The position numbers and the translations under genes are program-made. A DNA stretch of 22,507 bases from a virus. How positions within the stretch are numbered: the stretch's first letter is position 1; every line of letters begins with the position of its first letter. The notes below the pieces were generated by a model. It saw nothing but the letters and a program-made list of their open reading frames with translations, had not been told where the DNA came from and ran no database searches. The stretch spans positions 1 through 22,507 of the IMG/VR virus record IMGVR_UViG_3300010354_000731. One strand, given 5' to 3'. Below, one piece after another: positions 4,271 through 13,284 of the stretch.

Positions 4271-5086
4271 TTATTCGGTTTGTCCTTGATAATTATAATT
4301 ATCTCCCATCATATCATCAGTTTCATTTGGATCTTCTTGTTCGTATGGTATACTAGACTGACCAGGAAGAGCATGATTTGTTGGATCAAGATAATTTTTA
4401 ATATGTGGAAGAGAATCGGAATGTAATCCCATGTGAGCAAGACGATTGTGAATGTCAGTTGTTCTTTCTCTAAACGCAGCAAAAGTTGCCATTCTTCCTA
4501 AATTTACTTTATTTTGGTCGGCATCTTTTTCTTGCTTTTGTTGCCAAAGTTCATACCAATTCTTTCCTTGATCTGGATTACTTGTAGTAAGTTTCCAATC
4601 TTGCATGGACTGGAATACTTTGTCAAATTCTTTTTGTAAGTTTTGATCTTGATTAAGGAGATACATTGCAGGATGCATTTTAACCTGATTGATTAAATGA
4701 TCTGTTTTATCTTTTTGTGGTTGTGCTTGTGGATTCTGTTGCATCTTCTTTTGCATTTCTTCTGGAGATGCTATTTCAACACCATATGCTTTTGCTAGGT
4801 TTGTAATAAAATTCTTGGAATCTTTTTGAATCTTAAATCCACCACCACCTTGTACTAATCCATCGTCGCTTTGTTTACCAGGATCTAATGCTGATTGATA
4901 TGGACTATATAATGATCTTTGTACGTACATTGGCATCGTATCAGGATGAAGACCATATATGTAACCTTTTCCAGTAGACATATTTGATAATATATTAAAA
5001 GTAGAGGTTCCTATTATTTCATTAGGAACATCTAATTCTGGACCCAAAGGATTTGATTCTTTAAGATATTGTTTAAAACTTTTCAT
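4271..5086 (-). CDS. Hypothetical protein with capsid-targeting-like N-terminus (MKSFKQYLKES)
   Basis: 271 residues. The start at 5086 gives MKSFKQYLKES, nearly identical to the start of the genes at 104 and 913, with LKE fitting the prohead-protease rule. A longer reading back to 5140 adds a hydrophobic leader that lacks this motif and overlaps the opposite-strand promoter, so I reject it. The body is hydrophilic and Gln/Asp/Asn-rich, with QNPQAQPQKDK at about 120-130 and likely helical segments; the C-terminus is acidic (EQEDPNETDD). No Shine-Dalgarno is visible. Candidate packaged protein; activity unknown. Confidence 0.8.
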   Translation of the reverse strand: MKSFKQYLKESNPLGPELDVPNEIIGTSTFNILSNMSTGKGYIYGLHPDTMPMYVQRSLYSPYQSALDPGKQSDDGLVQGGGGFKIQKDSKNFITNLAKAYGVEIASPEEMQKKMQQNPQAQPQKDKTDHLINQVKMHPAMYLLNQDQNLQKEFDKVFQSMQDWKLTTSNPDQGKNWYELWQQKQEKDADQNKVNLGRMATFAAFRERTTDIHNRLAHMGLHSDSLPHIKNYLDPTNHALPGQSSIPYEQEDPNETDDMMGDNYNYQGQTE

Positions 5087-5125
5087 TATATAATATGTAT
5101 ATAATAAAAACAGTGGCATAGGGTC

Positions 5126-5153
5126 TTGACATATATACAACGGATGGTATAAT
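5126..5153 (+). promoter_or_regulatory. Sigma70-type promoter for the acidic-protein operon
   Basis: TTGACA at 5126-5131, 16-nt spacer, TATAAT at 5148-5153. CTTGACA plus GGTATAAT recurs at several other promoters in the window. Confidence 0.85.
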
Positions 5154-10737: not shown

Positions 10738-10998
10738 ATGCCTTTTCGTCTTCATATTGACATTCCTCTGAATATGACAGAGGATCAAGCTAAAATTGCA
10801 TCACAACAAATTCTTGGTATTCTTGCAGAAGAAGAAACTGATGCACTTATTTTAAATGCAATTGGTATCGATGAAATTAATTATCGTCTTGGTCATGATG
10901 ATGATCGTCAAAAGAGTAATTACTTTTTGAAAGATGCTAATGGTCATGTAAACAATAAGAAGTCAAAGATTATTGTCCCGAAGATGGTTCAAGACTAG
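10738..10998 (+). CDS. Hypothetical protein, 86 aa
   Basis: MPFRLHIDIPLNMTEDQAKI and on: a strand then helices (EDQAKIASQQILGILAEEETDALI) and a polar tail. It starts 2 nt after the upstream stop and converges with the minus-strand gene at 10970, overlapping it by 29 nt. No family recognised. Confidence 0.75.
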   Translation: MPFRLHIDIPLNMTEDQAKIASQQILGILAEEETDALILNAIGIDEINYRLGHDDDRQKSNYFLKDANGHVNNKKSKIIVPKMVQD

Positions 10999-11410
10999 AC
11001 ATTCTTGCTTCTAATGGAATTTTAACTTTTTTACCAAATTGTTGATATAATTTGTGTTTCTTTCTGCCAGATTCTGAGTCAGTATACGAATATCTAAGTG
11101 CTTTAATTTCTTCTGGTGAATTTTCAATATGATGTTTTATATGACTCAGAACTGTTTTGTATATTGGTAATGCAACAGACATGGGTTTGTTATCACCACT
11201 TGTAAAACCATCTACAAAAAATTTGATATCTGATTTATTAGTTACATAACTATGATCAATGTAAGTTTTAATTTCATGCTTACCGACAGTGCTTCTGTAT
11301 GTTTTAGTTACTGAAATTCCAGGGTATTCTTTTACTTCTGGTTGTAAGGGTTTTTGACTTTTATCGTCAATATCAAATAATTCGGCAATATAAGTTTTAA
11401 AAGTTTTCAT
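10970..11410 (-). CDS. Hypothetical protein with capsid-targeting-like N-terminus (MKTFKTYIAEL)
   Basis: 146 residues. The start at 11410 gives MKTFKTYIAEL, the closest of the set to the T4 capsid-targeting sequence MKTYQEFIAEA: the IAE preceding the cleavage point is the same. A longer reading to 11467 runs into the divergent tRNA promoter and is rejected. The minus-strand late box TATAAATA (11423-11416) ends 5 nt before the ATG. After residue 12 the body is basic with a His/Lys-rich C-terminal region (YKTVLSHIKHHIENS, KKHKLYQQFGKKVKI). Predicted late and packaged; activity unknown. Confidence 0.8.
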   Translation of the reverse strand: MKTFKTYIAELFDIDDKSQKPLQPEVKEYPGISVTKTYRSTVGKHEIKTYIDHSYVTNKSDIKFFVDGFTSGDNKPMSVALPIYKTVLSHIKHHIENSPEEIKALRYSYTDSESGRKKHKLYQQFGKKVKIPLEARMSSLEPSSGQ

Positions 11411-11415
11411 AGATT

Positions 11416-11423
11416 TATTTATA
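11416..11423 (-). promoter_or_regulatory. T4-type late promoter box on the minus strand
   Basis: Exact TATAAATA on the minus strand, 5 nt before the ATG at 11410; with the usual spacing the transcript would begin at or very near the start codon. Divergent from the tRNA promoter beginning 9 nt away. Confidence 0.7.
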
Positions 11424-11431
11424 TAAAGGTA

Positions 11432-11459
11432 TTGACAAGTGAGTAGTTTCTGATATAAT
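11432..11459 (+). promoter_or_regulatory. Sigma70-type promoter of the tRNA-tmRNA operon
   Basis: TTGACA at 11432-11437, 16-nt spacer, TATAAT at 11454-11459. tRNA-Ile begins 9 nt after the -10 box. Confidence 0.9.
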
Positions 11460-11468
11460 ACATTCAAC

Positions 11469-11621: not shown

Positions 11622-11623
11622 TT

Positions 11624-11712
11624 GCGTAGGATCAGTCAAGTAGCGCACTTGGAGGCTAAACTAGGATTGCTGTTTAAGCAATTGAGAAGGGGTTCAAGTC
11701 CCCCACTACGCG
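11624..11712 (+). tRNA. Type II tRNA, probably Ser(GCT), irregular anticodon loop
   Basis: Acceptor GCGTAG/CTACGC (6 bp; the seventh position is G-A), discriminator G, a long variable arm ATTGC-TGTTTAA-GCAAT, and T-arm GGGG-TTCAAGT-CCCC with a mismatched closing pair. The anticodon arm CTTGG/CTAGG encloses the 8-nt loop AGGCTAAA, in which GCT is preceded by G rather than the universal U33. Long variable arm plus G73 favours Ser over Leu. The variable-arm hairpin can be mistaken for an anticodon arm (TTT or GTT). Confidence 0.65.
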
Positions 11713-11790: not shown

Positions 11791-12105
11791 ATGACACTTC
11801 CAGATGAAATGTTCAATTCACTACGAGCAGCAAGGTCTTTTATGACAGACATGCTTGATCCTGCTGTATATCCAAAACTGCCAAAGCAAGTTCGTATGGC
11901 AGCAAGTGCTCGTCTAAAACATTTTCCAACAGAATACGATATTAATCAATTAGAAGAAATGTATAATAATTCTAATAAGGATAAAGGTATTCTTATTGGA
12001 GAAACTAATGCTGAACTTCAGCGTATTGCGGGAGAGGCGATGTTAGTAAACTCTCGTTTAACTAAGGTATCTCAAGCAATACAGGAACTTATAAATAAAC
12101 CTTGA
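11791..12105 (+). CDS. BPSL0761-like small conserved protein
   Basis: 104 residues, starting 2 nt after tRNA-Pro, so it is likely cut out of the tRNA transcript. MTLPDEMFNSLRAARSFMTDMLDP...LPKQVRMAASARLKHFPTEYDINQL fits the BPSL0761-type pattern seen in phages and bacteria (TLPDER...A...AR.FL.DL.DP...P..VR..A...LRHYP...D). Function unknown. The C-terminal half is helical (NAELQRIAGEAMLVNSRLTKVSQAI). A TATAAATA at 12090-12097 lies in its last codons, just before the tmRNA. Confidence 0.75.
   Translation: MTLPDEMFNSLRAARSFMTDMLDPAVYPKLPKQVRMAASARLKHFPTEYDINQLEEMYNNSNKDKGILIGETNAELQRIAGEAMLVNSRLTKVSQAIQELINKP
12090..12097 (+). promoter_or_regulatory. Late-box sequence upstream of the tmRNA
   Basis: Exact TATAAATA inside the end of the BPSL0761-like CDS and about 40 nt before the tmRNA T-arm. 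It could add late expression of the tmRNA, or be a chance match in AT-rich coding DNA. Confidence 0.35.
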
Positions 12106-12449
12106 TATCGTTGATCTATGTAAACTACCCAACTGCACAGGGGTGCGAATCCCCTCGACTCCATTCGACACTATGGGCGTTCTGACGAAAACGCGGTCTT
12201 GACAAGAGATGCGCTTGCGTAAAACGGTTCACTCAATTAACCGACAAAGCAAGATAGATGGTGTAATCCATCATAGTGTCACAAACTACGGGGTCGAAAA
12301 GAATCGACAGGGGGATGCGAGCATTAGGGAGATATCCGAGAGGTAGTCAACAACCCTCGTTAAATGCCAAAGTTGGCAACATAAATGCCGCACCAATGCG
12401 GATGGCTGCTTGAAGCAGTGGGGAATGGTTCACCCGCATCTGAACGAAC
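12106..12449 (+). ncRNA. ssrA: Circularly permuted (two-piece) tmRNA
   Basis: The acceptor half comes first: T-arm AGGGG-TGCGAAT-CCCCT (12139-12155), acceptor 3' strand CGACTCC (12156-12162), discriminator A, no encoded CCA. The 5' acceptor strand GGGGTCG (12290-12296) lies about 130 nt downstream and pairs with it (7 bp, one G-U), followed by GAATCGACAGGG, the tmRNA-type GAxTCGACxGG signature. The intervening segment is closed by GACACTATG (12167-12175) and CATAGTGTC (12272-12280). The tag frame starts at GCC 12366 and encodes AKVGNINAAPMRMAA, stop TGA at 12411, with the stop inside the hairpin CTGCTT/AAGCAG. Role: rescue of stalled ribosomes and tagging of their products for proteolysis, with SmpB. 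Outer ends are approximate; the helix linking the two pieces was not resolved. Confidence 0.85.
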
Positions 12450-12451
12450 CA

Positions 12452-12476
12452 CCCTCGCTTCACGGCGAGGGTTTTT
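12452..12476 (+). terminator. Intrinsic terminator of the tRNA-tmRNA operon
   Basis: CCCTCGC, 6-nt loop TTCACG, GCGAGGG, then TTTTT. It closes the unit that starts at the 11432 promoter. Confidence 0.9.
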
Positions 12477-12516: not shown

Positions 12517-13284
12517 ATGGGAAGATTTACCACTATGCTTGTGACTCTTTTCGTCATGACGACATCCGCATTCGCTCAGACGGATCCAAATGCCAAACTG
12601 AATTTGGTGCTTGAACAGCCAGAAACAAACATTCAAGTCGGAGAAACATTTGAGATTCCTCTGATGGTTTCCGCTGCAACCACTCCACAGCGATATGTCG
12701 TTGCAGACATTGTGTTTGGTTGGAACACCGAGCATCTTGAGTTCGTAGGCATCTCGCATGAGGGTTCGCATCCCCTCATATGGAGGCAGAATCCAACAGG
12801 TCTTCCGTACTGCCCACCTGGTCAGACGCATGGTTGTGGTGATTTCTACGGCATCAATGAACTACCAATACCCGCTGATGGAAATGGACTGTACTACGGC
12901 TACAATGTCATCGGATCGAACTTCGTAGTCACTGAGCCTGTACAGATAGTGAAGTTCATCTTCAAGGCACTTGCACCTGTATCTGCAACAGAGATTCAGT
13001 TGCTTCCCGAGCATACTGTCTACTACACCGCATTGACTGTGATCTATGGCAGCAGTGTGCCAGGAATGGTTGTGACGGGAACAACTACAAATGCAGTAGT
13101 CACCATTGTTCCTACGAACATTGCAGGAGATTTCAATGGAGATGGAACTGTTAATTCTGAGGATATGTCACAACTACTGACCAATTGGGGACTCAATTCA
13201 TTCAAGGCAAACCCATACGATCTCGACGGGGATGGAACGGTAGGCAGTGGAGACTTAGCGATTCTCCTCACCAACTGGTCTTGA
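12517..13284 (+). CDS. Exported cohesin-like/dockerin protein
   Basis: 255 residues. The start at 12517 follows AAAAGGGG and gives a signal peptide (MGRFTTMLVTLFVMTTSAFA, cut before QTDP); a longer frame would run through the tmRNA terminator. Residues about 25-195 resemble a cohesin/Ig-like beta-sandwich (LNLVLEQPETNIQVGETFEIPLMV, given in parts; VADIVFGWNTEHLEFVG; VQIVKFIFKAL). The C-terminus is a type I dockerin with two calcium loops: GDFNGDGTVNSEDM and DLDGDGTVGSGDL, each followed by LLTNW. This is the form abundant in planctomycete exported proteins. More GC-rich than its surroundings, with its own terminator; likely a horizontally acquired cargo gene. It would act outside the cytoplasm, perhaps in surface adhesion or polysaccharide contact (inference). 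Confidence 0.85.
   Translation: MGRFTTMLVTLFVMTTSAFAQTDPNAKLNLVLEQPETNIQVGETFEIPLMVSAATTPQRYVVADIVFGWNTEHLEFVGISHEGSHPLIWRQNPTGLPYCPPGQTHGCGDFYGINELPIPADGNGLYYGYNVIGSNFVVTEPVQIVKFIFKALAPVSATEIQLLPEHTVYYTALTVIYGSSVPGMVVTGTTTNAVVTIVPTNIAGDFNGDGTVNSEDMSQLLTNWGLNSFKANPYDLDGDGTVGSGDLAILLTNWS

Follow-up and report, generated by a model that had tools for sequence, protein, structure and literature searches.

Does the tRNA cluster of a T4-like phage encode a tmRNA in two rearranged pieces, and what lies in the segment between them? The question was raised by an earlier note on a stretch of viral DNA of 22,507 nucleotides (IMG/VR record IMGVR_UViG_3300010354_000731, positions 1 to 22,507; hereafter, the window), which had proposed a phage-encoded, circularly permuted tmRNA. 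We hold with considerable confidence that a T4-like phage encodes a circularly permuted tmRNA in two pieces at positions 12104-12450 and that a second RNA (12167-12280), shaped like a tRNA without an anticodon loop, is nested in the excised spacer of this gene; this reading includes the processing and tagging proposed below. The tmRNA gene, the nested RNA, the promoter-like box and the terminator lie on the plus strand.

Anatomy and setting of the permuted tmRNA

When the window was searched with the Rfam covariance models, the merged model RF04321 (tmRNA_permuted) matched positions 12104-12413. The score of 59.6 bits exceeds the cut-off, 47 bits, and the E-value for the window is 1.7e-9. The older alphaproteobacterial tmRNA model, RF01849, gave 25.1 bits, below its cut-off of 50, which places the window tmRNA outside the well-studied alphaproteobacterial subtype. 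ARAGORN called no tmRNA in the window and called the same gene in many close relatives. A blastn search of catalogued phages with the window tmRNA gave no match.

The elements that had been described from the letters alone (T-arm, 7-bp acceptor, GAATCGACAGGG signature, 9-bp GACACTATG/CATAGTGTC closure, MAA-TGA in a hairpin and terminator) were all found. The acceptor piece (12104-12163) starts where the RF04321 match begins. It contains an inter-piece strand GATATC, the T-arm (12139-12155), the acceptor 3' strand CGACTCC (12156-12162) and the discriminator A12163; the CCA end is unencoded, as it also is after the tRNAs of this phage. An intervening segment of 126 nt (12164-12289) follows, whose removal is expected from the spacer lengths among relatives. 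The coding piece (12290-12450), delimited by the RF04321 match, by pairing and by covariation, holds the acceptor 5' strand GGGGTCG (12290-12296), which forms seven base pairs with 12156-12162, and further the G3-U70 pair, the second inter-piece strand, pseudoknot PK1, the tag and a 3' pseudoknot. An intrinsic terminator, CCCTCG..CGAGGGTTTTT, is found at 12452-12476.

Relatives were gathered by a signature search of viral contigs and then by further pattern searches; they are mostly contig fragments, so that absences among them are soft. In 27 distinct tmRNAs, cells in which both sides of a pair had changed numbered 12 in the acceptor stem, 11 in the inter-piece helix, 8 in the T-arm and 32 in the 3' helix. 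As acceptor partners were collected with seven pairs required, the percentage paired is not independent, and the evidence is the variety of compensating changes, with CGACUCC/GGGGUCG, CAUCUCC/GGGGAUG, CGGUUCC/GGGACCG and CGGCUCC/GGGGCUG all represented. The inter-piece helix likewise occurs as GATAT/ATATC, GACAT/ATGTC and GGTAT/ATACC, and the G3-U70 alanine identity pair is present in 27 of 27. Thus, the T-arm and the acceptor 3' strand precede the acceptor 5' strand, and their pairing is maintained by compensatory change.

The gene lies in a T4-like tRNA cluster, with genes nearby for gp32, tail tube, baseplate hub and head closure proteins; gp32 shares about 45-52% identity with proteins of cyanophages and pelagiphages. 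Upstream, a TATAAATA box (12090-12097) ends 6 nt before the tmRNA 5' end, G12104, and resembles the T4 late promoter. Eight-base matches to TATAAATA are about as numerous in the window as chance would give, so the argument for a promoter rests on its conserved position: the box, complete or partial (TAAATA, TACATA), stands at the same distance from GATAT, GACAT or GGTAT in most relatives. In L046, L048, L039 and L040 (locus handles of relatives), the 3' end of a tRNA abuts the tmRNA in place of the box. From the likeness to the T4 late promoter we infer late expression; transcription would probably start near G12104.

The subsequent steps are proposed. The host RNase P would cut just before G12290, and the acceptor piece would be finished by 3' trimming and CCA addition. 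Once tRNA-processing enzymes had released the two pieces, the host AlaRS would charge the acceptor piece through G3-U70, and the host SmpB would bring it to stalled ribosomes, where the tag would be added. Independence of the phage from its host, which the earlier note had suggested with respect to a degraded host tmRNA, is unlikely, because a search for an SmpB gene found none in 18 related records, the set including one of 177 kb; the control detected SmpB in 10 reference genomes.

The same result fits another possibility, namely that the phage tmRNA competes with or inhibits the host tmRNA rather than rescuing ribosomes. A precedent is the tagless tmRNA of mycobacteriophage DS6A, which competes with or inhibits the host tmRNA (PMC11915505), and two relatives, L022 and L025, have lost the tag-coding part while retaining the acceptor half and the nested RNA. 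However, about 30 relatives have kept the tag frame, the stop codon and the pseudoknots, and for the phage tmRNA as a whole we regard interference as very unlikely. In L022 and L025 themselves, a short stub that has no tag frame and runs into a terminator makes up the second half; these two are CDS-less tmRNAs, as in DS6A.

The window is not the first case of a permuted tmRNA in a phage, such genes being already known. Methylophage Melnitz carries a two-piece ssrA, and 53 two-piece tmRNAs were found in phage genomes by ARAGORN (PMC9004378). The window gene shares with RF04321 and Melnitz the gene order, the acceptor pairing, G3-U70, a tag ending in AA and a location in a phage tRNA cluster. 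It differs from them in its position outside the alphaproteobacterial subtype model (25 of 50 bits) and in a 126-nt spacer with a conserved RNA; furthermore, Melnitz has a glutamine riboswitch, whereas none was seen at the window tmRNA.

Three other features of the window were recorded. Directly downstream of the tmRNA, 12517-13284 (plus strand) codes for a protein that looks secreted and carries a dockerin type I repeat (PF00404); such cargo is unusual in T4-like phages. Between tRNA-Glu and tRNA-Pro, 11622-11712 (plus strand) is likely an extra tRNA, Ser-like, with a long variable arm and GCT in the anticodon position, which was called by neither ARAGORN nor Rfam. Finally, the open reading frames 104-646, 880-1482, 4271-5140 and 10970-11467 share an N-terminal MKSFKQYI-like stretch, as if they had a common leader or formed a paralogous family.

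The tag peptide

A short frame ending in Ala-Ala and a stop codon is present in the coding piece, and its end, MAA-TGA, lies inside the GCUGCUUGAAGCAG hairpin. The earlier note had read it as a tag of 15 residues, AKVGNINAAPMRMAA, which would put the resume codon at GCC 12366. This longer frame is open in the window and in L005, L020, L027 and L028. In other relatives, however, a 1-nt shift or an in-frame stop falls between GCC 12366 and the conserved end of the tag: read back from the stop codon, the frame is conserved only as far as GCC 12387, upstream of which 1-nt indels and in-frame stops occur. From that codon on, eight codons are kept, giving for instance AAPMRMAA, AAPMRRAA, AAPMAMAA, ANELAMAA and GAQMRLAA, and the tag frames called by ARAGORN in relatives were identical, of eight residues with the same ends.

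Furthermore, GUUGGC (12372-12377) can pair with the loop GUCAAC of the preceding hairpin and probably forms the second strand of PK1. If PK1 is completed by this strand, about 9 nt are left and the canonical spacing would set the resume codon at GCC 12387. Since the upstream frames of relatives carry indels and stops, the tag predicted from the sequence is most likely AAPMRMAA, the last eight codons (GCC GCA CCA ATG CGG ATG GCT GCT TGA, 12387-12413), and the 15-residue tag appears highly improbable.

The tRNA-like RNA nested in the spacer

The intervening segment had been described as closed by the 9-bp GACACTATG/CATAGTGTC helix. This helix is indeed present, but it belongs to a separate tRNA-like RNA, whose acceptor stem it forms, and the segment is not a plain spacer: it holds a member of a conserved RNA family. 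The nested RNA (114 nt, 12167-12280) was delimited by a covariance model, R1, by its fold (z=-2.8) and by covariation in 33 sequences. Its acceptor 5' strand GACACTAT (12167-12174) pairs with 12273-12280 and is followed after two nucleotides by a D-arm, GCGTT(CTGACGAA)AACGC (12177-12194). One nucleotide further, a hairpin with a GASAA pentaloop, GTCTT(GACAA)GAGAT (12196-12210), stands in the position of the anticodon arm. Then come a long variable arm, CTTGC/GCAAG (12214-12253), with an internal loop formed by GTAAAAC and GACAAA, and a T-arm, GATGG(TGTAAT)CCATC (12257-12272), which abuts the acceptor 3' strand. Acceptor stem, D-arm and T-arm thus form a cloverleaf with the element order and linkers of a class II tRNA; the stand-alone relatives have a canonical 7-nt T-loop.

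R1 was built on 11 copies of the stand-alone subtype, nine of them outside tmRNA spacers, with the window excluded. It nevertheless found 12167-12280 with 87.6 bits (E=1.5e-20), and the family comprises 41 loci with 33 distinct sequences. In an alignment of these 33, which is biased towards the model because it was fitted to it, the six-helix structure of 31 pairs was paired in 97.0% of cells, and double changes affected 20 of the 31 pairs (183 cells), a level reached by 0 of 500 shuffles. In slid controls, the paired fraction dropped to 33-44%. The same fold was obtained by an independent MAFFT/RNAalifold run. Energy minimization of one stand-alone member also reproduced the model unaided.

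The pairing data also bear on the anticodon arm. The stem of the pentaloop hairpin can form in 27-33 of the 33 sequences at each position, while a stem closing a canonical 7-nt anticodon loop pairs in just 0-25 per position. A tRNA-Val(GAC) or tRNA-Leu(GAG) with the loop UUGASAA was ruled out by this covariation. A small ribozyme of hammerhead type, to which a CUGANGA-like string in the D-loop had pointed, was likewise rejected: the last base of the string varies and stem II is absent. The GUAAAAC internal loop is invariant (33/33), and GACAAA stands opposite in 26 of 33. Since the acceptor stem varies freely by compensation, the conserved information lies in the core, where the invariant bases are found.

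No Rfam family matched the window insert at E<1, nor did any match other members, and neither ARAGORN nor the tRNA model RF00005 recognized the nested RNA. In bacterial genomes, a strict pattern gave no hit and a relaxed one gave 18 stretches, apparently of unrelated coding sequence, none of which was convincing by R1 (best 16.1 bits, E=0.057, over the core only). A blastn search of catalogued phages with five members returned no family member, and the open-access literature yielded no account of a tRNA-like RNA lacking an anticodon in the spacer of a permuted tmRNA. It seems probable that these RNAs form an undescribed phage family, which travels with tmRNA and tRNA clusters and nests in the throw-away spacers of permuted tmRNAs. 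A strongly conserved RNA family without an Rfam match offers a testable architecture with many natural variants.

Contexts, known counterparts and possible roles

The nested RNA occurs in several settings. Twenty of the 41 loci, including the window, have it in the spacer of a permuted tmRNA, and two more (L022 and L025) in a permuted tmRNA from which the part encoding the tag is missing. It stands alone shortly upstream of a permuted tmRNA at seven loci and directly upstream of a standard tmRNA at three (L043 and L084 by Rfam, L054 by near identity). Seven copies are in tRNA arrays of records in which no tmRNA was detected (two of these records have 100 and 113 kb), and the two others are at contig ends. 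Where whole records were searched, each contained one copy. As a gene of its own, with a canonical T-arm, a 7-bp acceptor and ordinary tRNAs on both sides, the same core is found in L038, L039 and others. The tmRNA spacer measures 122-135 nt with the nested RNA and 6-13 nt in relatives without it (L008, L009, L010, L013, L016, L018 and most of L027-L036).

This distribution could mean that the element is an aid to processing and that its tRNA shape serves to attract RNase P or to keep the two ends of the tmRNA together. Such a role agrees with the 20 copies inside permuted tmRNA spacers and with 10 more that adjoin a tmRNA or lie a short way upstream of one; the seven copies in arrays without a detectable tmRNA speak against it. 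Moreover, a spacer of 6-13 nt suffices in many close relatives, and the invariant bases are in the core and not in the acceptor stem, all of which makes a processing aid unlikely.

Alternatively, the nested RNA could be a selfish or decaying tRNA copy, tolerated since the spacer is discarded. Its presence or absence is clean among relatives, R1 finds its best matches outside the family in class II tRNAs, and L026 has a whole tRNA-Pro in the same slot. Near-identical copies in diverged tmRNAs also suggest transfer: the window and L019 share 91% identity in the nested RNA and 67% in the tmRNA, values that suggest either transfer or a stronger constraint on the nested RNA. On the other hand, the strong compensatory change in all six helices and the invariant GUAAAAC loop show purifying selection, and each record holds one copy. 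A tolerated tRNA copy is thus quite unlikely in our view.

We favor an RNA with a function of its own. A core that is invariant while the tRNA shell around it varies freely would suit an RNA that binds a specific partner and whose shell serves processing and stability. Our best guess is that the conserved core (the GASAA hairpin and the GUAAAAC/GACAAA loop) binds a protein or another RNA and that the tRNA shell serves maturation and stability. The nested RNA would be freed by the same tRNA-processing enzymes and would accumulate as a separate stable RNA, like RNA C and RNA D of T4. The nested RNA might also act as a decoy against host defences that target tRNAs.

RNA C and RNA D (NC_000866, 70908-71171) are, like the nested RNA, RNAs of about 120-140 nt and of unknown function encoded in a phage tRNA cluster, and RNA C ends in a T-arm, as the nested RNA has a T-arm. 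When R1 was run on the whole T4 genome, only tRNA-Ser was found at E<0.001, and the RNA C region scored 16.3 bits (E=0.18). These RNAs are thus the nearest functional analogues, without detectable homology, and the nested RNA bears on the old puzzle that they pose. Class II tRNAs (Leu, Ser, Tyr) share with it the acceptor, D-arm and T-arm geometry, the long variable arm and weak R1 matches; unlike them, the nested RNA has no canonical anticodon loop, has a conserved internal loop in its variable arm and is called by neither ARAGORN nor the Rfam tRNA model. As an anticodon-less tRNA mimic beside phage ribosome-rescue genes, it is relevant to the question of why tRNAs are carried by phages.

A counterpart with an RNA gene inside the removed spacer is the intact tRNA-Ala in the intervening sequence of the permuted tmRNA of GCA-2688965 sp002688965, a case called unique in a genome that is possibly misbinned (PMC11915505). 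That RNA is an ordinary tRNA, whereas here an anticodon-less tRNA-like family is found in many phages, with a tRNA-Pro in addition in L026. The window shows that the excised spacer of a permuted tmRNA can host another functional-looking RNA gene.

Other variants of the spacer were observed. In L026 (438-946, minus strand), the spacer of the permuted tmRNA holds the complete tRNA-Pro, which comes after the nested tRNA-like RNA; a reading of this locus as having lost the tmRNA coding piece was wrong, the tRNA-Pro being inserted in the spacer. In L038, L039, L040, L041, L045, L047 and L049, a different conserved structured segment of about 95 nt, GCCTAACCGAA...AAGTCCTAGGCTT, occupies the tmRNA spacer where the tRNA-like RNA stands alone upstream. 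Two further RNA elements were noted in the collected contigs: a pistol ribozyme in the phage contig L043 (4010-4077, plus strand; RF02679, 60.6 bits) and a group I intron in L085 (6604-6784, minus strand; RF00028, 64.3 bits).
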